A stretch of DNA of 64,000 nt from Lunatimonas sp. (GCF_020832325.1 NZ_JAFIEU010000002.1:62001-126000), one strand, 5' to 3'; shown: positions 19,818-29,017, numbered from the stretch's first letter. The notes: generated from the sequence alone by a model not told the origin. Made by a program: numbers and translations.

Positions 19818-19981
19818 GAAGCTCAACCTGCTGATGAATAGGTCTATAGTATCTGATTTTTACTTTTCGAATTACTTTTTTGCGCTGAAACATAAAAAAT
19901 CCTTATGGTTCTCATACTAAATCAAAATGAAAACTTATGCGATTTTTTACAAAACTTTGCGGCGAAAAAATCAGGTATCCT

Positions 19982-21637
19982 ATGTCAGAAAATGTACTAG
20001 CACTTATTGCGCTTATTTCTCCGGCGATTTTTGTTGCCGTGGCCATCGCCTCTTGGTTTCAGCGCGGATCAAAACCACGACAGGTGATTTTAGCGGGCAA
20101 ATTTGCCACGATCAGCAGTCTGCTTATTTGTTGCATTTGTTGTTTTTACACCATCAGGTTGGGATTGATCGAGTCTGCTTTAGTCGGAATCAACGACATT
20201 GGATTTAGCGTTCGCCTAGATTCGCTTAGTCTGTTAATGCTGGGAATGATTGCGCTGCTGGGCTTTATCATAATGAAATTCAGCATCAATTATTTGGATG
20301 GAGACGAGCGTCAGGGCGTCTTCTTGGGAAGACTTGCGGCGACGATTGCATCGGTTCAAATGCTGGTTCTTTCGGGAAATATCGGGCTGTTGTTTTTAGC
20401 TTGGGTATTGACAAGTATGTCACTCCATCGCCTGTTGCTTTTCTACCGAGAGCGGCCGGGGGCTCAAATTGCTGCGAAGAAAAAGTTCATCTTGGCCCGG
20501 CTTGGGGATTTCTGCTTGTTAGTAGCCGTTGGATTACTGTACCATCAAGTAGGATCGGGTAACCTTGAAGTCATCTTTTCCTACTTTAAGCATCCCACTA
20601 CCATCGACAGTACGCTCGTGCCGGTTGAGTTAGCAGCGTTGTTTTTAGCCATGGCAGCGATTTTAAAATCTGCTCAGTTTCCTACACACGGATGGCTGGT
20701 TGAAGTAATGGAAACGCCCACCCCGGTGTCCGCATTGCTACACGCAGGTCTTTTGAATGCAGGGCCTTTTCTGATTATCCGTATGAGTTATGTCATGGAC
20801 GCTAGTACGTATGCACCGATGCTGTTGATGGCCTTGGGCGGATTTACAGCGCTTTTTGCGTCTATTGTGTACCTCACACAGACCTCCGTGAAAACTGCTT
20901 TGGGTTATTCGAGCGTTGGTCACATGGGGTTTAGCTTAATGGTTTGTGGTCTAGGTGTATATCCTGCTGCCATGCTTCACCTCGTGGCCCATTCCTTCTA
21001 CAAAGCACACGCTTTCTTATCCTCAGGTAGTGTGATCGATGTGGTCCGAGCATCCAAAATCGCCTACACACCGGAAAAAGTAGATTTGCGACGAGTTATG
21101 GGAGGTATTGTCATGGCCCTATTGATGTATACTGTATTTGCGCTAATTTGGGGTTTAAATCCCTCGAAAGACCTATCCCTACTTTTTGTCGGCGCGGTCA
21201 TCGTATTGGGGTTATCGCGTATTTTTGCCGCGGCACTAGCCGGAAAGTGGCAGCTAGCCCTGATAGCCCGTGCGATGTTTCTCGGGTTGGTGGTTACGGT
21301 TTCCTTTTTTGTATTGGAATCTGGTACCCAGTACTTACTAGGTTCCCAAGTTCCGGAGATGATGCAGCCTAATCTGATAAAAGCACTGGTGATGGGGGTT
21401 CTTTTGCTCGGCTTTGCCTTTGTCGTGTTCGTGCAACATCATCTGTGGCAGCTTTCATCCAACGCCAAATACCAAGCCCTCGCTGTTCACTTTCGAAATG
21501 GATTCTATGCCAATGCTTGGTTTGATAGGGTGATACAAGCCCTACAAGTCCCTTCTGCTGATGGCAACGAGTTGGAGAGAGTCCGTTTTTCTCTAACAAA
21601 GATCGAGGGGTCCCAAAGACGATGGCTTTTAAAGTAA
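19982..21637 (+). CDS. dabB: DabB: NuoL-like proton-channel subunit of the inorganic carbon transporter
   Basis: Membrane protein of about 551 residues from the ATG at 19982 (MSENVLALIALISPAIF); the track starts 15 codons earlier at 19937. It carries the Proton_antipo_M domain of NuoL/MrpA type, with AVELAALFLAMAAILKSAQFPTHGWLVEVMETPTPVSALLHAG being the key region (conserved Lys, His and Glu of the proton path). It has 12 or more helices. It lacks the other complex I or Mrp subunits around it. Instead, dabA follows after 55 bases, which identifies it as the proton-coupled membrane half of a DAB pump. Confidence 0.88.
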   Translation: MSENVLALIALISPAIFVAVAIASWFQRGSKPRQVILAGKFATISSLLICCICCFYTIRLGLIESALVGINDIGFSVRLDSLSLLMLGMIALLGFIIMKFSINYLDGDERQGVFLGRLAATIASVQMLVLSGNIGLLFLAWVLTSMSLHRLLLFYRERPGAQIAAKKKFILARLGDFCLLVAVGLLYHQVGSGNLEVIFSYFKHPTTIDSTLVPVELAALFLAMAAILKSAQFPTHGWLVEVMETPTPVSALLHAGLLNAGPFLIIRMSYVMDASTYAPMLLMALGGFTALFASIVYLTQTSVKTALGYSSVGHMGFSLMVCGLGVYPAAMLHLVAHSFYKAHAFLSSGSVIDVVRASKIAYTPEKVDLRRVMGGIVMALLMYTVFALIWGLNPSKDLSLLFVGAVIVLGLSRIFAAALAGKWQLALIARAMFLGLVVTVSFFVLESGTQYLLGSQVPEMMQPNLIKALVMGVLLLGFAFVVFVQHHLWQLSSNAKYQALAVHFRNGFYANAWFDRVIQALQVPSADGNELERVRFSLTKIEGSQRRWLLK

Positions 21638-21691
21638 TCAATTTGGTCGAATATTCAATAGTTAGAAGATCTGCAATCATAAAAATTCACA

Positions 21692-24169
21692 ATGGAAGAC
21701 CATTTATTAACACAAGAAAAGGAAGCGAAGGTTGCCTCGCTAGCAAGCGTACTCCAAGAGGCTTGTAAGAAGATAGCACCTGTTTGGCCCTTGGAGAATT
21801 TCGTTGCGGTGAATCCCTATTTGGGCCTTACCGATCAAAAGTTCAACAATGTTGCGCAGTATCTTGGCGCTGTCGCAGGCATACAGATGACCTTGCCCGT
21901 ATCTTTTTACCGAACCAAAATCCAGGAAGGGGTAATAACCCGGGGGGATTTGCAGGCTGCATTTAAAAAGCATTCAACCAATGAGGTAGATGTAGAGACG
22001 TTTATTCGAGGGTTAGGTGGAATTTCCGATGCAGGAGACCCCATGACATCCGTTGCCACTTTAACTGACGTTGCCACGGTCGTTTCAGGGAAAGACTGGA
22101 ATCGTTTTTCCATCTCCCGCATATCTACCTGGGCTGCTACGTATTTTGATAATGGCCAAGCGGTTTGGAATGTCTCCAATCGGCAGGGGGGTATGTTTCT
22201 GTCTTGGAAGTGGGAGTCGCAGATCGATAAAACGCCTGAGGTCACGGGTTTGAAAAACTTTCGTGCAGTGGTGAAGGCAATGCCAAACCAACCGCTATTG
22301 GCTGCGAAAAGTGCCTTGGAAGTACTAGGCGTGTCCGATGAAGCCCTGCCCATTTACCTACACCGCCTACTGTTGCGGGTAGGGGGTTGGTCAGCACATG
22401 CTGCGCGACTGGACTGGGACAATGCGTTGTACGGAAAGGAAGGAGGTGTCTTGCAGGAGTTTTTGATCATACTTATTTGCTGGGAAGCCTGCTTGCTGCA
22501 ATGCCTCAAGGAGTCTGAGCTGAACTTTGTATGGTTGGAGGCCAAGAAGCAGCTTTCCGAAGCAGGATTGAAGATAGAGATCAGTCATGCACTTTCGGAA
22601 AAGCTGTTGTTGCAGGAGGCATTTGATATCGCTATGCAGCGGGAGCTTATTACAAAATTTCAAGCTACGGATACCGTTGCTCCAGAGAAAGCAGCGAGGC
22701 CTTTGGCACAAGGGATATTTTGCATTGATGTGCGGTCAGAGGTTTTTCGGCGAAATTTGGAGCAGGTAAATCCACAGATCGAAACGATTGGGTTTGCCGG
22801 TTTTTTTGCCTTTCCGATCAATTTTGTTCCCATCGCCCACGAACAGGGTGAAGCGCAGTGCCCGGTACTAATTCCTACTGGACCCACCATTATGGAGGAA
22901 TTGCAGGATAAGGCATCGCACGAGGTAGCCTATCGGGAGCGCGTGCTGCGGTATCAAGTTAAAAAAATCTGGAAGTCATTTAAATCCGGGGCTGTAACCT
23001 GCTTCAGCTTTGTAAGTCCCATGGGGTTGTCTTTTCTGCCTAAGCTATTTACCGACTCCTTTGGGATGACACGGCCGGTACCTCACCCCGATCGTGCAGG
23101 ACTCAAAGGTATTTCATCCAAGCGCAAGACTGTATCCCTTCAGGTTTGCGATCACCACCAAGGTACCACAGGTATACCCCTGGAGAAGCAGGTTGAAATG
23201 GCCAAAACTGCCCTAAAGGCCATGTCCCTGACGGAAAACTTTGCACAGTTTGTTATGATCATTGGCCATGGAAGTACCTCTGTAAACAATCCCCACGCCA
23301 CTGGATTGGATTGTGGTGCCTGTGGCGGACACACCGGGGAGGCCAACGCCAAAGTGGCTGCGGCAGTGCTAAATGGTAAGCAAGTAAGAGAAGCACTGCG
23401 CAAACAAGGAATAGCCATTCCGGTTGACACGGTGTTTTTGGCATGTCTCCACGATACCACCACCGATGAAGTAACCGTATTTAACGAGGATGCGGTGCCG
23501 GAGTCGATGGTAGAAGATTATACTACGTTGACCACGTCCTTATCTAAAGCTGCTAAAGCGACCCGTGCTGAGCGGGGACTGCGCATGGCGATAACGAGAA
23601 ATCAGGATAAGGCGGTGCTGGCAAGGAGCAAAGACTGGTCGCAGGTCCGACCGGAGTGGGGTCTGGCGGGTTGCCATGCCTTCGTGGTGGCACCACGCAA
23701 TCGTACCAAGCATATAGATCTAGGTGGCAAATCGTTTTTACACTCCTATGATTGGAAAAAAGACAGCGGATTTTCCATCTTGGAACTGATCATGACCGCT
23801 CCGATGGTAGTAACGAGTTGGATCAATCTTCAATACTATGGATCTACCGTGGACAATCTGCATTTCGGTTCCGGAAACAAGACCTTGCATAACGTAACAT
23901 CCGGAACCGGCGTGCTCGAGGGCTACTCTGGCGACCTGCGGGTAGGGCTACCTTTGCAGTCGGTGCATGATGGGGAAAAGTACCAGCACGAACCGGTAAG
24001 GCTCAATGTGATTATCGAGGCACCCTTGGATGCCATGAATGGGATTCTAGAAAAGCACAGTACCGTAAAAAATCTCTGCGACAACGGCTGGATTTCCCTC
24101 TTGGCCCTGAATGAGGAGGGCAAAGTGGCTTATCGCTACGAAGGAGGTTTGCAGTGGGAATGTGTCTAA
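21692..24169 (+). CDS. dabA: DabA: zinc-dependent inorganic carbon transporter subunit (DUF2309)
   Basis: 825 residues, formerly UPF0753/DUF2309. DabA resembles a beta-carbonic anhydrase and, with DabB, is proposed to hydrate CO2 vectorially and so accumulate bicarbonate. Candidate zinc ligands are visible: Cys344 and Asp346 in GIFCIDVRSEVFRR, His526 in IIGHGSTS and Cys541 in TGLDCGACGGHTG. The 15-residue His-to-Cys spacing is the same as in the characterised DAB2 protein. The opening PVWPLENFVAVNPYLGL is also typical. It is soluble and associates with DabB at the membrane. It ends before a hairpin terminator. Confidence 0.93.
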   Translation: MEDHLLTQEKEAKVASLASVLQEACKKIAPVWPLENFVAVNPYLGLTDQKFNNVAQYLGAVAGIQMTLPVSFYRTKIQEGVITRGDLQAAFKKHSTNEVDVETFIRGLGGISDAGDPMTSVATLTDVATVVSGKDWNRFSISRISTWAATYFDNGQAVWNVSNRQGGMFLSWKWESQIDKTPEVTGLKNFRAVVKAMPNQPLLAAKSALEVLGVSDEALPIYLHRLLLRVGGWSAHAARLDWDNALYGKEGGVLQEFLIILICWEACLLQCLKESELNFVWLEAKKQLSEAGLKIEISHALSEKLLLQEAFDIAMQRELITKFQATDTVAPEKAARPLAQGIFCIDVRSEVFRRNLEQVNPQIETIGFAGFFAFPINFVPIAHEQGEAQCPVLIPTGPTIMEELQDKASHEVAYRERVLRYQVKKIWKSFKSGAVTCFSFVSPMGLSFLPKLFTDSFGMTRPVPHPDRAGLKGISSKRKTVSLQVCDHHQGTTGIPLEKQVEMAKTALKAMSLTENFAQFVMIIGHGSTSVNNPHATGLDCGACGGHTGEANAKVAAAVLNGKQVREALRKQGIAIPVDTVFLACLHDTTTDEVTVFNEDAVPESMVEDYTTLTTSLSKAAKATRAERGLRMAITRNQDKAVLARSKDWSQVRPEWGLAGCHAFVVAPRNRTKHIDLGGKSFLHSYDWKKDSGFSILELIMTAPMVVTSWINLQYYGSTVDNLHFGSGNKTLHNVTSGTGVLEGYSGDLRVGLPLQSVHDGEKYQHEPVRLNVIIEAPLDAMNGILEKHSTVKNLCDNGWISLLALNEEGKVAYRYEGGLQWECV

Positions 24170-24304: not shown

Positions 24305-24310
24305 TTTTCG

Positions 24311-24384
24311 CTCCTCCTCTTGGGCTCGAACCAAGGACCCTTTGATTAACAGTCAAATGCTCTAACCAACTGAGCTAAGGAGGA
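24311..24384 (-). tRNA. tRNA-Asn (GTT)
   Basis: A complete cloverleaf reads on the minus strand: acceptor TCCTCCT/AGGAGGA, D arm AGCTCAGTTGGTTAGAGC, anticodon stem TTTGA/TCAAA with loop CTGTTAA (anticodon GTT), T arm CTTGG-TTCGAGC-CCAAG, and discriminator G. 74 bases, CCA not encoded. Its 3' half (32 bases with the flank) is repeated exactly, inverted, at 25673-25704. Confidence 0.95.
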
Positions 24385-24421
24385 ATGTTATCGAAAAAAG
24401 GCATACCCGTTTTTCGTGATG

Positions 24422-24453
24422 CAAACATAACAGGTTCCTTATTTTTTTCCAAA
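24422..24453 (-). promoter_or_regulatory. Promoter of tRNA-Asn
   Basis: Minus strand TTTG, 20 bases, then TATGTTTG: an exact match to the Bacteroidota consensus TTTG-N(19-21)-TAnnTTTG. It lies about 37 bases upstream of the mature tRNA end. Between here and 24617 no gene is seen. Confidence 0.8.
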
Positions 24454-24616
24454 TTACCCAGGGAAAAAATGTACCTCCCCAATTTGTACCACACAATACA
24501 AGCTAGCAGTCAAGTGGTTAATTTTTCTAAAACCACCCTTCAACATGCCTTGGGAAAGAAAGGGATAGGTATATATGAAAACTGCAGGTCAAATTTTTAA
24601 TTTTCTAAATTTATTC

Positions 24617-24624
24617 TAATTTTG
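24617..24624 (+). promoter_or_regulatory. Candidate promoter (-7) of the tRNA-Pro array
   Basis: TAATTTTG fits TAnnTTTG and lies 40 bases before the first tRNA-like copy, the same spacing as for tRNA-Asn. The -33 position holds only TTTT. No comparable element precedes the later tRNA copies or the GIY-YIG genes. Confidence 0.5.
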
Positions 24625-24664
24625 CAGTCCACAAACGTGTGATATACTCGTTCAGGGTGAATCT

Positions 24665-24738
24665 CGGGGTGTAGCGCAGTCCGGTAGCGTATCCTGACAG
24701 GAGTCAGGAGGGTCGTGGGTTGAAATCCTGAATTTGAA
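24665..24738 (+). pseudogene. Degenerate tRNA-Pro copy (unit 1)
   Basis: The first 30 bases are identical to the intact tRNA-Pro 100 bases downstream, covering acceptor and D arm, and GGTCGTGGGTT of the variable/T region is kept. The anticodon arm is instead the palindrome TCCTGAC-AGGA-GTCAGGA (either 5-bp stem with 8-base loop or 7-bp stem with tetraloop), the T loop is TTGAAAT, and the 3' acceptor strand does not pair with CGGGGTG. It is unlikely to be charged or to work in translation. Confidence 0.8.
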
Positions 24739-24764
24739 TTAAAAAAATAGTAAACAGAGAATCT

Positions 24765-24838
24765 CGGGGTGTAGCGCAGTCCGGTAGCGTACTTGCATGG
24801 GGTGCAAGGGGTCGTGGGTTCAAATCCCGCCACCCCGA
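24765..24838 (+). tRNA. tRNA-Pro (GGG)
   Basis: Complete cloverleaf: acceptor CGGGGTG/CACCCCG, D arm GCGCAGTCCGGTAGCGT, anticodon stem CTTGC/GCAAG with loop ATGGGGT (anticodon GGG), T arm GTGGG-TTCAAAT-CCCGC, discriminator A. 74 bases, CCA not encoded. It is followed by a perfect terminator hairpin and then directly by a GIY-YIG gene. Confidence 0.95.
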
Positions 24839-25032
24839 CGAGAGTTTAGCCAGACTGTATCCCAGTCTGGCTTTTTTATGGCATACGTTGTCTACATACT
24901 TTATTCACCGTCCTTGTGCCGATTCTACGTTGGTCAGACGGAGGACCTCGTCGACAGGCTGATCCGGCACAATTCGGGCAGGAACAAGTCCACCAAGGCT
25001 GGTGTGCCTTGGACTTTGGTGCACTCGGAACA
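24833..25032 (+). repeat. Direct repeat, copy A (tRNA 3' end, terminator, 5' part of GIY-YIG gene)
   Basis: About 200 bases nearly identical to 25273-25473 (seven differences noticed, one being an extra T). The match stops sharply inside the GIY-YIG reading frame. Confidence 0.9.
24848..24877 (+). terminator. Terminator of tRNA-Pro, abutting the GIY-YIG start
   Basis: Perfect 10-bp stem AGCCAGACTG-TATCC-CAGTCTGGCT with a T6 tract. The T tract is followed with no gap by the ATG of the GIY-YIG gene. Confidence 0.88.
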
Positions 25033-25135
25033 GGCTCCAAACCGGGCTGAGGCACTGGCAAGGGAAAGAAAGATAAAGAATCTCGGAGCACGGAGATATC
25101 TCAGAAACCTGGGCATAGACTTTGGCCTCAACTAG
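24878..25135 (+). CDS. Small GIY-YIG nuclease domain protein (copy A)
   Basis: 85 residues from the ATG at 24878. The track's 24797 start translates the tRNA and is an artefact. A stand-alone GIY-YIG domain of the URI/YhbQ-like type: VVYILYS and FYVG stand for the GIY and YIG strands, LVDRLIRHNSG supplies the catalytic Arg, ALARERKIKNLG the metal-binding Glu, and the helix ends in GARRYLRNLG. The enzyme class cuts DNA at branched or specific sites; the target here is unknown. It has no visible promoter and sits straight after the tRNA terminator, so expression would need read-through or a hidden promoter. Confidence 0.88.
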   Translation: MAYVVYILYSPSLCRFYVGQTEDLVDRLIRHNSGRNKSTKAGVPWTLVHSEQAPNRAEALARERKIKNLGARRYLRNLGIDFGLN

Positions 25136-25181
25136 GAAAATGATTAAGCGGCGCCGGAATCCGAAAACACAGATAATTAAC

Positions 25182-25278
25182 AGGGGCTGCAGCGCAGTCC
25201 GGTAGCGTATCCTGACTGGTGTCAGGACGGTCGTGGGTTCAAATAGAGCGGACCCTGATGGCAATCAGGGTACCCCGA
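25182..25278 (+). pseudogene. Degenerate, enlarged tRNA-Pro copy (unit 3)
   Basis: It keeps GCGCAGTCCGGTAGCGTA, GGTCGTGGGTTCAAAT and the 3' ACCCCGACGAGAG. The anticodon arm is TCCTGAC-TGGT-GTCAGGA. The 3' side of the T stem is replaced by about 27 bases containing a second palindrome ACCCTGAT-GGCA-ATCAGGGT preceded by AGAGCGG, which itself looks like the D-arm side of another tRNA. The 5' acceptor strand (GGGGCTG) no longer pairs well. Confidence 0.75.
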
Positions 25279-25473
25279 CGAGAGTTTAGCCAGTCTGTAT
25301 CCCAGTCTGGCTTTTTTTATGGCATACGTTGTCTACATACTTTATTCACCGTCCTTGGGCCGATTCTACGTTGGTCCGACGGAGGACCTAGTCGACAGGC
25401 TGATCCGGCACAATTCGGGCGGGAACAAGTCCGCCAAGGCTGGTGTGCCTTGGACTTTGGTGCACTCGGAACA
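25273..25473 (+). repeat. Direct repeat, copy B
   Basis: Partner of 24833-25032, in the same orientation 440 bases away. Similarity falls off immediately after the common GGAACA. Confidence 0.9.
25288..25318 (+). terminator. Terminator-like hairpin before GIY-YIG copy B
   Basis: AGCCAGTCTG-TATCC-CAGTCTGGCT with one internal mismatch compared with copy A, then T7 and directly the ATG. Confidence 0.75.
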
Positions 25474-25606
25474 TTTGCCAGACAGGGTAGTAGCAATTGT
25501 AAAGGAAAAGCAGATAAAAGACCTTGGTGCCAGAAGATGCCTAAAAAGTATTGATAAAGAGTTTGGAACGGACAGTTGTGATATTCATTCGCCTCCAGAC
25601 GTATAA
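25319..25606 (+). CDS. Small GIY-YIG nuclease domain protein (copy B)
   Basis: 95 residues. Residues 1-52 are almost identical to copy A (VVYILYS, FYVG, DRLIRHNSG kept). From about residue 53 it diverges: EHLPDRVVAIVKEKQIKDLG against EQAPNRAEALARERKIKNLG, with a different, longer tail. The putative catalytic Glu (VKEKQIK) is kept. FYVGPTED replaces FYVGQTED. Like copy A it follows a tRNA-like copy and a terminator hairpin. The mosaic pattern suggests gene conversion between two different GIY-YIG genes. Confidence 0.85.
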   Translation: MAYVVYILYSPSLGRFYVGPTEDLVDRLIRHNSGGNKSAKAGVPWTLVHSEHLPDRVVAIVKEKQIKDLGARRCLKSIDKEFGTDSCDIHSPPDV

Positions 25607-25625
25607 AGCACCTATTGACTAATTT

Positions 25626-25703
25626 TCCTGGGGGTTAGCGCCTTAGGTTAGGGCATCCTGACGGTAGTCAGGAGGGTCCTTGGTTCGAGCCCAAGAGGAG
25701 GAG
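25626..25703 (+). pseudogene. Degenerate tRNA-Asn-like copy (unit 4)
   Basis: The 3' half (T arm, acceptor AGGAGGA, discriminator G) is identical to tRNA-Asn at 24311. The D arm is altered (TTAGCGCCTTAGGTTAGGGC), the 5' acceptor TCCTGGG pairs only in part, and the anticodon arm is TCCTGAC-GGTA-GTCAGGA, the same palindrome type as in the tRNA-Pro-like copies. With the extra flanking bases, 25673-25704 is a perfect inverted copy of 24310-24341. Confidence 0.8.
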
Positions 25704-25710
25704 CAAAAAA

Positions 25711-25737
25711 AGAGGTCTCTTTGGACCTCTTTTTTTG
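25711..25737. terminator. Bidirectional terminator
   Basis: AGAGGTC-TCTTTG-GACCTCT flanked by A7 on one side and T8 on the other. It can end the tRNA array on the plus strand and the GH106 gene on the minus strand. Confidence 0.85.
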
Positions 25738-25744
25738 TGTTTGA

Positions 25745-28700
25745 TTACTCCACTTTTAGAATCTTCACCGGACCAAGTAATCCAGAGGGAAGTAGGGGAG
25801 CATTGGCCTGATAGAAAGGCATGGTGGTAAACGTGGATTTTTTCGCACCGGGCTGTGCATCACCAATAAGGCGGTTAACCCAGAGGTTGGCCACACGTAT
25901 CTCCAAAAGGTTTTCACCGCTTTTTAGCACATCGCTGATGTCCAGTTTGAAGGGGCGCTTCCAAACAATGCCCACAGTATGTCCATTTACAGTCAGTTCG
26001 GCGAGGTTTTTCACTTCTCCTAGATCTATCTCGTAGTTCCCGGGAACAAAGTCTGTCGGTAAAACCAGGGAATGGGTATAGGTGGCGATGCCGGAGAAAT
26101 ATTTCAACGTAGGATCCGTATGGGACGACCAAGAACTGAGAGATGGGAAGTTTTCTTTCACGCTTCCGAAATCCAGTTGCCAAGGGCCATCGATGGTTGT
26201 CAAAACAGTCCGTTTTTGCTCGGGTACGCTAAAGGACTCCGCGCTAGCTGCTTCTCGGAACACAATGAAGTAAGCATCCCAAGAGGAGAAAGTTAGTGGT
26301 ATCTCGGTTCTACCTTCCCGTATCTGATAGGAAAGTTCCTGTACGCTGCCGTCTATGGGATTCCAGCGCATGGGCTTTTTATCCGTCATGCGGAAGCTTA
26401 CCAGCGCGGAGGTTTCGTTTGCATGTCGATTGTTTACCCAATAGATATCCGAATCCTCTGTTTTTCGATGTCTGAAAAGGATTTTGTGACTAGTACCCGT
26501 GATCTGTACATCTGGAGCAACCGGAAGTTTAACGGCGGGTCCTACATTACTCTTCTCCCATAGTTCCTTTGCCAACGCCTGAAAGTCTTGGTCTGAATCA
26601 GCTAGGCTGGGTGATTGGACCGGGCGTTCACCAATGATTGGTACACCTGCATCTGCCAAAACTTTCAGTTTACGGAGGACGCGAAGGGTCATCAAGCGGG
26701 TGCTTTCGTCCAGCATTAACGCTTCGTAGGTGTTTCCGCTCCGTGCCTTGAGCCGATCCTTTTCTGCTTCGATGGCCTCGAGTAGAGCGGTAGCGTTGAC
26801 AAAGTCGAATTCATAACCCGCAGGTATAGCTGGGAGTGTTTCCCGCGCAATCCATGTGATATTGGTATTTTCCCCGTATAGGTAAAGAATATCGGCTACA
26901 TTACTCCCTTGCTGCATCATGGCCGAGCTTCTGCTCAGGTAGTCTATCCATGGTTTTGCCAGTTCCGCCCAGGTTTCCTGCCGCGTGAAGTACTGGCCGA
27001 AGGGACCAAGAGAAAAGCCCGGCTTTTTATCATCCAATGGTTGATGCACGGAGGTGTGGATAACGAAGCGGTTGAGTCCGGAAGCGAGCTCTAGGTCGGC
27101 GGTACGTTTTAGCCGTTCGGGGTACTCCTGAAAGGGTCGCCCCACAGAGGTCATGGATTCGGCTGCTACAAAGGGTTTTCCGTAGATATTTGCTACAGAG
27201 GCAGATTCCCGGATGTCAGCCTCGCTGCGCACTTCCTCGTCCTCGCCTCCCGCCAGACTGCCGGGAGTCCACATGGCCGACATGGGGATATCTGCGTTCC
27301 TTTTCACATCCATGCCATCTGCGAGGTAAATGCGTTTGTTTTCGTGGGATTCGGTATACCGCTTCATGCCCCGTTTTTTCAGTTCCTCTCCGATTACGTC
27401 GTAGTGGTAATCGGAGATCATCTCACCGATCGTTTGCCGAAAATCCCATAGAAATTTTTCGCTCGCTTCCACGCTGTTTACGACTCGCCCGGTGAGCGCG
27501 GGCAGGAAGCTTAGTAGGCTATATCCACGCCTTTTTTCAAATTCTGCCGGAAAATCTCCCGTCCAGTTCATGTGGCCGGCCTCGTAGCTGTCCAGAATCA
27601 TGTATTCCAGTCCACCCGGACCCAGTTTGCCGCCGGTGGCGTCTTCGTACAGATCCAGGTAATGGTTGATATAGCGGCGAACTGCTTGTGGATCCAATTT
27701 GTCGACTTCCAGTCCTGTCGCCTCTGGGGAAGCGGGATGGTTCTGCCTTCCGGTCAGGGAGTAGCCAAATCGGATGATCTTCCACCTACCGGAAGGAGCT
27801 GACCAGCTGAGCGCACCATTTTCACCCATTTTGGAAGTCAGGTCCACTACCCCGTCGGCAGGGATAATTCCAACGGCTTCCTGTGTTGCAGGGCTTGCCA
27901 GGAGGTAGTCCTCTGTCCAGGGAGAAAATCCAGCTTTGTCTTCCACCTGATCAATGCGTGATGTGGTGTAAAGCTGAAATTCGGCTACTTCCACCCCATC
28001 AGGTTTGAGTTCACCCTGATTCAGTCCGGCCATGGCCGCAAAAAAGTTCGGCTCGGGAGGCAGTGTTTCAAATGCGATCCGCCAGTATTTCGCTTTAGTG
28101 GCAGGAATCGCTACAGTATTGAAGGGAACCGTACTTCCCGATACAGTGGCTACCGTGTGGAAAGTTACCCCATCGTCGGAGACTTTTAGCCGGCGGTTTT
28201 TCGGACCTCCATTAAATTCAGCCAACGGGCCGTTCATGGCTCCCGAAATGCTGAAAGCCCGAAAGGTTTGCGGCTGCTCGAAGGCGTATTGAATCCACAT
28301 ATCCTCTCCGATTTCCATTGGGGGGAGAAACCCTGATTTTTCTAGGCTACCATCTAGTAATAGCCGGGTGTCAAAGTCACCGCCGCTATGCGTGATGCGG
28401 GGATTTAGATCAGGTAGGGATAATTCTGTTTCGGGCACTTGAAAAGCCACCACGAGTGCATCTTTATAAAACCGTGGTACCTCCCCAATAAACCCGCCGG
28501 ATATGCCACCTCCCTCTAGATGGGCATCCTGGTATTTGCCCGTTTGATCAGAGGGCATGGGCAATGGGCCCGAAAAGGTGCGACCTCCCTCAACTTCCCA
28601 TTCCGACCAAACGTATTTCTTCATTGCATCGTCAGGGCTGACCCAGGGACCTCCTGTTACACTCCACCCGGGTGAGCCGGCAATAGCCATTTCCAAACCT

Positions 28701-29017
28701 TTCTGACTGGCTAGCTCGGTGGTGTGTCGAAAGGCAGCCTTCCACGGCGGTGTCATAAATACCAGTTTTTCCGGAACTACCACCGGCGTAAAGAGGTTGG
28801 CATCGAAATTTTGGAAACCACCTATGCCCGTTTTTTCCATCCATTCCAGGTCTTTTTGGATGCCCTCCTGTGTGATGTTGCCATTCATCCAATGCCACCA
28901 CACCCGCGGTTTGGCGAGGTTGTCGGGGTGCAGAAAGTTAGTGTAAAGGGGGTCTTGCTGACACATGGCGCTGTGTGCCACCCACAGCGATACAACAAGC
29001 AGTATGATTTGCTTCAT
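25745..29017 (-). CDS. Glycoside hydrolase family 106-like (alpha-L-rhamnosidase)
   Basis: 1090-residue secreted enzyme with a signal peptide (MKQIILLVVSLWVAHSAMCQ). The N-terminal region has the GH106 hallmark PRVWWHWMNGNITQEGIQKD, then GIGGFQNFDA, a TIM-barrel region with YMILDSYEAGHMNW and PFVAAESMTSVG (conserved Glu residues, plausibly catalytic), inserted discoidin-like beta domains (about 210-370), and a C-terminal galactose-binding-like jelly roll ending NLWVNRLIGD. GH106 enzymes release L-rhamnose from plant or algal polysaccharides such as pectin. No SusC/SusD pair or other glycosidase is adjacent, so it is not within an evident polysaccharide utilisation locus. Confidence 0.85.
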   Translation of the reverse strand: MKQIILLVVSLWVAHSAMCQQDPLYTNFLHPDNLAKPRVWWHWMNGNITQEGIQKDLEWMEKTGIGGFQNFDANLFTPVVVPEKLVFMTPPWKAAFRHTTELASQKGLEMAIAGSPGWSVTGGPWVSPDDAMKKYVWSEWEVEGGRTFSGPLPMPSDQTGKYQDAHLEGGGISGGFIGEVPRFYKDALVVAFQVPETELSLPDLNPRITHSGGDFDTRLLLDGSLEKSGFLPPMEIGEDMWIQYAFEQPQTFRAFSISGAMNGPLAEFNGGPKNRRLKVSDDGVTFHTVATVSGSTVPFNTVAIPATKAKYWRIAFETLPPEPNFFAAMAGLNQGELKPDGVEVAEFQLYTTSRIDQVEDKAGFSPWTEDYLLASPATQEAVGIIPADGVVDLTSKMGENGALSWSAPSGRWKIIRFGYSLTGRQNHPASPEATGLEVDKLDPQAVRRYINHYLDLYEDATGGKLGPGGLEYMILDSYEAGHMNWTGDFPAEFEKRRGYSLLSFLPALTGRVVNSVEASEKFLWDFRQTIGEMISDYHYDVIGEELKKRGMKRYTESHENKRIYLADGMDVKRNADIPMSAMWTPGSLAGGEDEEVRSEADIRESASVANIYGKPFVAAESMTSVGRPFQEYPERLKRTADLELASGLNRFVIHTSVHQPLDDKKPGFSLGPFGQYFTRQETWAELAKPWIDYLSRSSAMMQQGSNVADILYLYGENTNITWIARETLPAIPAGYEFDFVNATALLEAIEAEKDRLKARSGNTYEALMLDESTRLMTLRVLRKLKVLADAGVPIIGERPVQSPSLADSDQDFQALAKELWEKSNVGPAVKLPVAPDVQITGTSHKILFRHRKTEDSDIYWVNNRHANETSALVSFRMTDKKPMRWNPIDGSVQELSYQIREGRTEIPLTFSSWDAYFIVFREAASAESFSVPEQKRTVLTTIDGPWQLDFGSVKENFPSLSSWSSHTDPTLKYFSGIATYTHSLVLPTDFVPGNYEIDLGEVKNLAELTVNGHTVGIVWKRPFKLDISDVLKSGENLLEIRVANLWVNRLIGDAQPGAKKSTFTTMPFYQANAPLLPSGLLGPVKILKVE

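Follow-up and report, generated by a model that had tools for sequence, protein, structure and literature searches.

Within a 64,000-nt window of the Lunatimonas sp. genome (the window being the whole stretch of DNA that was analysed), two genes for small GIY-YIG nucleases alternate with one intact tRNA-Pro gene and tRNA-like copies in an array of about 1.4 kb. We interpret this array, with a probability of roughly 0.72, as a minimal selfish mobile element of the homing type that is specific for tRNA genes and is present here as a tandemly amplified copy. Its arrangement far exceeds what chance would produce. Comparison with other genomes shows, at the level of sequence, insertion relative to an empty site, targeting of tRNA genes on one strand, isotype-linked lineages, tandem amplification, gene conversion and purifying selection. 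An original prediction, made from the sequence of the window, had described tRNA-Pro, tRNA-like copies and two GIY-YIG genes in one orientation, and this was confirmed by ARAGORN, PF01541 matches and exact strings; the intact tRNA-Asn gene, the hairpin and the mirror-image 5'-type architecture reported below were absent from it. No published description of a tRNA-linked GIY-YIG unit was found in the open-access literature.

Most clade B GIY-YIG genes lie beside tRNA genes

In a tree of small GIY-YIG proteins from 39 related genomes, the sequences fell into two clades, A and B (Shimodaira-Hasegawa approximate likelihood ratio test, SH-aLRT, 99). Of 297 Bacteroidota genomes sampled, 188 had matches to a hidden Markov model (HMM) built from clade B (E 1e-10), as many as 18 in a single genome. 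Sampling covered mostly one genome per species, and many draft contigs end at such arrays; tRNA adjacency and hairpins were scored by custom scripts. An intact tRNA gene lies within 200 nt of 107 of the 135 clade B clusters, on the same strand in 107 and on the opposite strand in 0. It is just upstream in 82, downstream in 19, on both sides in 5 and inside the cluster in 1, leaving 28 with none. About 0.4 would be expected by chance (0.36 of 135 clusters, our own estimate, which assumes 45 tRNAs per 4 Mb), so the excess of GIY-YIG genes beside tRNAs that had been anticipated is present. The tRNA-linked clusters span 66 genomes, 56 genera and 17 families, and involve about 30 anticodon types.

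The notion that all small GIY-YIG genes are tRNA-linked was rejected, as 0 of 22 clade A clusters lie near a tRNA. Loci without an upstream tRNA were likewise rejected as exceptions: most have a tRNA directly downstream (the 5'-type), and Rfam confirms tRNAs at most of them. The tRNAs are intact and contiguous, with no intron, and Rfam returned only tRNA hits in 20 loci of this group. Clade A (the L050-L094 set, for example L064, L081 and L085) is a second family, with GIY-YIG genes of about 95-110 amino acids (aa) that never stand beside tRNAs. Its genes often adjoin other dispersed palindromes (CATTGCGAG and CTTCGCTGCGCTC types) and may represent another nuclease-palindrome partnership.

The Lunatimonas genome holds five small stand-alone GIY-YIG genes, the window pair included. 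The third lies behind a tRNA-Met, with Met copies bearing CCCCGAT-NNNN-ATCGGGG in the anticodon loop. The fourth follows three tandem tRNA-like copies with CCCGAC-NNNN-GTCGGG, and the fifth, at the edge of a contig, begins after a tRNA 3' end.

Filled and empty sites demonstrate variable occupancy

As an independent replicate, a scan of named genomes used the Met-type sub-alignment and returned 80 loci. Where at least 300 bp of upstream sequence was available, 55 of 66 loci have tRNA-Met(CAT) within 250 nt upstream and 0 have another isotype. Elements in Flavobacterium occupy at least 3 distinct tRNA-Met loci, in 1-4 copies. At the F. nitrogenifigens locus (L280), tRNA-Met is followed by a terminator, a GIY-YIG gene, CAGGATTCTTA-TCCGCCAACGCGGA, the last 27 nt of the tRNA and the native terminator. 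The insert between tRNA-Met and native terminator measures 372 bp, contains the GIY-YIG gene only, with no integrase or other site-specific recombinase, and its presence leaves the tRNA 3' end directly repeated over 27-30 bp. Among 61 sampled members of the genus, 30 orthologous loci were compared; in all 30 the site is empty and tRNA-Met is directly followed by a native terminator. Occupied and unoccupied alleles therefore exist at one site, and occupancy differs even where the flanks are up to 97% identical (G257). Together with the 1-4 copies seen at orthologous loci, these results uphold the earlier expectation that element number and location vary among relatives. For the Pro site, the contig of genome G002 ends inside tRNA-Pro and cannot show an empty allele.

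The element terminator (AACACCAC...) recurs across species and across formylmethionine (fMet) and other Met loci, and the terminator behind the last remnant is often locus-specific. The remnant is disrupted by a hairpin, while the intact tRNA persists beside the nuclease gene.

In one genome of Niabella ginsengisoli, three identical Met-type nuclease genes (L331, L325 and L330) accompany three tRNA-Met loci that lie on different contigs, a good case of recent spread.

Isotype-linked lineages, selection and gene conversion

On a tree of 126 clade B proteins, tRNA isotype requires 35 changes (minimum 16; shuffled mean 71.8; 0 of 200 shuffles as low) and host family 56 (shuffled 77): nuclease lineages track tRNA isotype better than host family. 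The Met, Asn, Ser and Asp clades each span several families. Isotype is strongly conserved, with many forks too poorly supported for the frequency of lineage switching to be read from the tree. For Flavobacterium Met-type genes, the median ratio of nonsynonymous to synonymous substitution rates (dN/dS) is 0.09 (31 genes, 201 pairs), which points to purifying selection for a working enzyme.

In keeping with the original prediction, the flanking tRNA pieces track the local tRNA wherever they were scored; the Asn piece of the window is an exception. The Pro array is shared with one congener (G001), whose tRNA-Pro(ggg) is identical to that of the window across the aligned stretches. The terminator and about the first 50 codons are 95-100% identical between copies within a genome and 75-95% identical between genomes. 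Identity in this tract is thus higher within than between genomes, which means that homogenisation of the same tract took place separately in the two lineages. For the 3' half of gene 1, by contrast, the window resembles G001 more closely than the copies within a genome resemble each other. The original prediction had regarded an invariant array at the same place in relatives as speaking against mobility; a shared array does exist in G001, yet gene conversion there has been independent.

Organisation of the array and of the element

The features of the array, in order along the window, are:

24310-24384, minus strand: intact tRNA-Asn(gtt) gene (ARAGORN)
24665-24730, plus strand: degenerate 5' tRNA-Pro copy, consisting of the 5' half, a hairpin replacing the anticodon arm and a partial T-arm (sequence, exact strings)
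24692-24709, plus strand: hairpin TCCTGAC-AGGA-GTCAGGA in the degenerate 5' Pro copy (pattern scan, exact strings)
24765-24839, plus strand: intact tRNA-Pro(ggg) gene (ARAGORN)
24849-24877, plus strand: intrinsic terminator GCCAGNCTGTATCCCAGTCTGGC, copy 1, belonging to the repeat unit (sequence, exact strings)
24878-25135, plus strand: GIY-YIG gene 1, 85 aa, clade B (PF01541, E 5.6e-13)
25183-25279, plus strand: tRNA-Pro remnant (copy 2) with hairpins in the anticodon arm and T-arm (sequence, exact strings)
25210-25227, plus strand: hairpin TCCTGAC-TGGT-GTCAGGA at the anticodon-arm place of Pro copy 2 (pattern scan, exact strings)
25252-25271, plus strand: hairpin ACCCTGAT-GGCA-ATCAGGGT in the T-arm of Pro copy 2 (pattern scan, exact strings)
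25289-25318, plus strand: terminator GCCAGNCTGTATCCCAGTCTGGC, copy 2 (exact strings)
25319-25606, plus strand: GIY-YIG gene 2, 95 aa, its 5' half homogenised with gene 1 and its 3' half diverged (PF01541, E 7.9e-11)
25627-25704, plus strand: tRNA-Asn remnant with intact 3' end and hairpin TCCTGAC-GGTA-GTCAGGA at 25656-25673 (sequence, exact strings)
25711-25736, plus strand: terminator behind the last remnant (exact strings)

The plus strand carries the intact tRNA-Pro, all three degenerate copies (two Pro, one Asn) and both GIY-YIG genes, with the intact tRNA-Asn opposite. Each GIY-YIG gene stands directly 3' of the same terminator (24849-24877 and 25289-25318), as the original prediction had noted.

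Upstream of the Pro array, at a distance of 0.3 kb, the opposite strand carries the intact tRNA-Asn, and the last remnant of the Pro array is also of Asn type; G001 shares this arrangement. The 3' end of the intact tRNA-Asn and positions 25675-25704 of the Asn remnant form an inverted repeat of 30 bp, about 1.3 kb apart. An Asn remnant in a Pro array near an inverted tRNA-Asn suggests either an inversion or a hybrid of Pro and Asn elements.

Across clade B, the element consists of a terminator, a GIY-YIG gene of 80-100 codons and a hairpin, about 0.3-0.45 kb in all, with an intact tRNA on one side and a fragment of the same tRNA on the other. In the 3'-type layout, the intact tRNA is followed by the terminator, the GIY-YIG gene and a hairpin-bearing remnant that runs to the tRNA 3' end, after which terminator and GIY-YIG gene repeat. 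Such remnants start at the D-arm, the anticodon or the T-arm, and hairpin-bearing tRNA 5' halves may stand upstream. The 5'-type layout is the mirror image: one or more units of tRNA 5' fragment with hairpin and GIY-YIG gene precede the intact tRNA, and the GIY-YIG stop codon often falls within the tRNA start. Tandem units can be 98-100% identical at a constant period, as in 5 x 315 bp (L198) and 5 x 450 bp (L234). The amplified parts are the nuclease and broken tRNA pieces; the intact tRNA is normally single.

A hairpin at an isotype-typical position replaces part of the tRNA remnant

In each degenerate copy of the window, the hairpin TCCTGAC-NNNN-GTCAGGA stands in place of the anticodon arm, and the T-arm of Pro copy 2 holds a further hairpin. 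The window contains 4 instances of this pattern (0.04 expected from shuffles) and the whole 5.34-Mb genome 41 (2 for the reversed control); 10 of the 41 lie in arrays on contigs C50, C36 and C18, and another 4 cluster on C12, at a contig end. Among clade B elements with an identifiable 3' remnant, 78 of 86 carry a junction hairpin, compared with 6.5% of random 38-nt windows, an approximate comparison given that the control used a 5-bp minimum stem and a wider loop range and the remnant scan a 4-bp stem. A fixed-window search after the last GIY-YIG stop yielded 27 of 84 against 78 of 86 for the remnant-anchored search, because many clusters lack a 3' remnant there.

Most remnant hairpins include TCC...GGA, and their position is isotype-typical. 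The Met hairpin lies 27 or 30 nt from the tRNA 3' end, directly behind the CAT anticodon; Asp and Gly hairpins lie mostly 17 nt from the 3' end, in the T-arm; the Ala hairpin lies at 31 nt and Val hairpins mostly at 32-35 nt. The upper stem varies yet stays paired, in examples that were chosen for TCC...GGA and complementarity and so illustrate covariation rather than test it. The possibility that the hairpins are generic repetitive extragenic palindromic sequences (REPs) of the genome was rejected, since dispersed CCCGATAGCTATCGGG sites, read in context, are mostly part of a longer, unrelated repeat. A dispersed repeat of about 70-100 nt in the same genome (L135, L137 and L143-L146) has the core CCCCGATAGCTATCGGGG between ccggcaggcaggt...catcccagtgtgtgacggctacgtcatgc.

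The nuclease is a single-domain GIY-YIG protein

The window proteins and L221 contain only PF01541, and L234 has a weak extra T5orf172 match; no Y1/HUH domain was found in domain searches of these proteins, nor a DDE domain. Like free-standing homing endonuclease genes, the clade B genes encode the homing-type catalytic domain PF01541, with Y6, Y17, G19, R27, H31, E63 and K67 invariant in 23 diverse members, which also keep T39 and A59. The AlphaFold model of the gene 1 product has a predicted local distance difference test (pLDDT) score of 94.5. Its best matches in the Protein Data Bank (PDB) are the UPF0213 protein 1zg2, by sequence and fold, and structures of Slx1, by fold; I-TevI matches more weakly. 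Slx1 is a branched-DNA nuclease. UPF0213 and Slx1 differ from clade B in having no known tRNA linkage.

No relative was found in 50,697 phage records, no usable family in PHROGs or NCBIfam, and nothing by PADLOC. Four weak plasmid matches all lie outside Bacteroidota. Those in Legionella, Azospirillum and Acetoanaerobium have no annotated tRNA neighbour, in records of which Acetoanaerobium is almost unannotated and in PLSDB tables that omit RNA genes.

Proposed mechanism and alternative explanations

A tRNA-linked selfish or homing element, as originally predicted, is supported by comparison; the accompanying claims that the nuclease cuts tRNA genes and that the element spreads by repair we infer, as we do nuclease activity, the cut site and the role of the hairpin. 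In the proposed mechanism, the nuclease would cleave a tRNA gene that lacks the element, either directly or as a folded or cruciform structure, as a fold like that of Slx1 or UPF0213 would allow. Host recombinational repair would copy the element in, with duplication of a tRNA end. The hairpin replacing a tRNA stem would remove both the target and the tRNA fold in the remnant and may also be an end signal, and repeats between units would let the array grow by unequal recombination. Two sub-models can be envisaged, namely homing via tRNA homology, as in fungal mitochondrial mORFs, and a transposition-like route in which staggered cuts duplicate the target. That the tRNA repeats are of local origin after switches between fMet and other Met loci slightly favours the latter; gene conversion and tandem growth would need ordinary recombination under either.

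Several points weigh against a selfish homing-type element. Cleavage and transfer we infer from sequence. The intact tRNA stays beside the nuclease, and the donor's escape from self-cleavage is unexplained. No tRNA was detected for 28 of 135 clade B clusters (some contig-cut or bearing remnants), resolution of the trees, which were built from about 85-100 columns, is poor, and with mostly one genome per species the comparisons are between species, not strains. Two apparent switches between fMet and other Met loci occur in Flavobacterium; the flanking tRNA pieces fit the new local tRNA, so homology arms are not simply a fixed part of the element.

This last observation also bears on a transposition-like mechanism, which is the best of the alternatives, though we consider it unlikely. 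Here the nuclease, alone or together with the host, would make staggered nicks at the tRNA 3' end and 17-35 nt inside, so that the tRNA repeats would be target-site duplications of local DNA and not element sequence. The hairpin would be a true end signal, recognised in single-stranded or cruciform form as with IS200/IS605 and REP/RAYT. Pieces that fit the local tRNA even after the apparent switches, a near-universal hairpin with a variable but paired upper stem, and closest folds in UPF0213 (1zg2) and the branched-DNA nuclease Slx1 agree with this; however, the protein has no Y1/HUH or DDE domain, and the repeat length varies by isotype and sometimes takes in the terminator. To our knowledge, no GIY-YIG enzyme is a transposase.

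It is improbable that the loci are a host-useful tRNA dosage device in which the nuclease amplifies tRNA copies on demand, like SegB in phage T6. SegB does cause segmental amplification of tRNA loci (PMC13096335) and clade B loci are tandem arrays beside tRNAs, but only the nuclease and broken tRNA pieces are amplified, the intact tRNA is normally single, the remnants have a stem replaced, and presence is patchy among close species. There is equally little to recommend a toxin that cleaves tRNA, or an anti-phage device that does so, for which the tRNA-like pieces would serve as decoy or antitoxin RNA: although the nuclease adjoins pieces with altered anticodon or T arms, these retain very different parts of the tRNA and usually could not fold as one, PADLOC finds nothing, the fold is that of DNA nucleases, and many loci are single-copy at one essential tRNA. 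Finally, tRNA 3' ends are classical integration sites, but it is hardly credible that the GIY-YIG genes are passive, inert cargo of hot spots where integrative elements insert, given a whole Flavobacterium insert of 372 bp with one gene and no integrase, isotype-linked lineages, the same-strand rule, 5'-type arrays and strong purifying selection.

Beyond the selfish homing-type element favoured here, we tentatively entertain, as a possibility rather than an expectation, that these elements are autonomous mobile DNAs of an altogether new class and rank with the smallest known. Members of this class would consist of one 80-100-codon GIY-YIG gene plus a hairpin and insert beside tRNA genes of one isotype with local tRNA duplication. 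They would recognise tRNA-gene structure (cloverleaf or cruciform DNA) over long DNA sequence, and would have colonised about 30 anticodon types across Bacteroidota.

Comparison with known systems

SegB of T-even phages is a free-standing GIY-YIG homing endonuclease that lies beside tRNAs, is reported to cleave within tRNA genes and causes segmental locus amplification through homologous recombination; its motif RAWTSGAAC resembles the T-loop (PMC13096335). A GIY-YIG gene adjoining tRNA genes and tandem amplification are common to SegB and clade B elements. SegB, however, has 221 aa, is phage-borne and amplifies full-length tRNA, whereas the window protein, at 85 aa, lacks the C-terminal part of SegB and has no significant similarity to it (BLASTP E 0.23, 37 columns), and clade B elements reside in bacterial chromosomes with isotype-linked lineages, broken tRNA pieces and hairpins.

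Fungal mitochondrial mORFs, known from Allomyces atp6, Rhizopus atp9 and Glomus atp6, atp9, cox2 and nad3, resemble clade B elements in placing an endonuclease gene at the end of a still-functional host gene, with the duplicated native 3' end displaced downstream (PMC3630166). A duplication of this type occurs at L280, where the tRNA 3' end is repeated and the remnant is followed by the native terminator. In contrast, mORFs target mitochondrial protein genes and bring a foreign, diverged 3' end (PMC3630166), whereas clade B elements target a tRNA gene, are bordered on both sides by tRNA sequence that agrees with the local tRNA, and have a hairpin in place of part of the remnant. With REP/RAYT (TnpA-REP) and IS200/IS605 they share small palindromic hairpins tied to one small nuclease gene, but they lack Y1/HUH, and their hairpin lies inside tRNA remnants at a fixed isotype-typical position. 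They differ from integrative conjugative elements (ICEs), integrative mobilizable elements (IMEs) and satellites in that the 372-bp insert contains no site-specific recombinase. The elements are thus probably selfish homing-type nuclease elements of neither the SegB nor the mORF family.

Such elements would explain a common, unexplained Bacteroidota annotation, the small 'GIY-YIG nuclease family protein' genes, as a selfish nuclease living on essential tRNA genes of bacterial chromosomes. Arrays of tRNA pseudogenes, and perhaps the breaks of assemblies at tRNA loci, would be accounted for as well, and DNA recognition could be studied on a natural series of nucleases, about 80-100 residues long, whose lineages are linked to isotype. 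With filled and empty sites in culturable Flavobacterium, mobility is directly testable.

Genes flanking the array

On one side of the array lies a dabB/dabA-like pair (19937-24169), on the other a GH106 rhamnosidase gene (25745-29017). In the former, a dabB-like Proton_antipo gene is followed by dabA (PF10070, E 1.5e-256), a putative inorganic carbon uptake pair. The latter, on the minus strand and adjoining the array, encodes an alpha-L-rhamnosidase with carbohydrate-binding-like domains.

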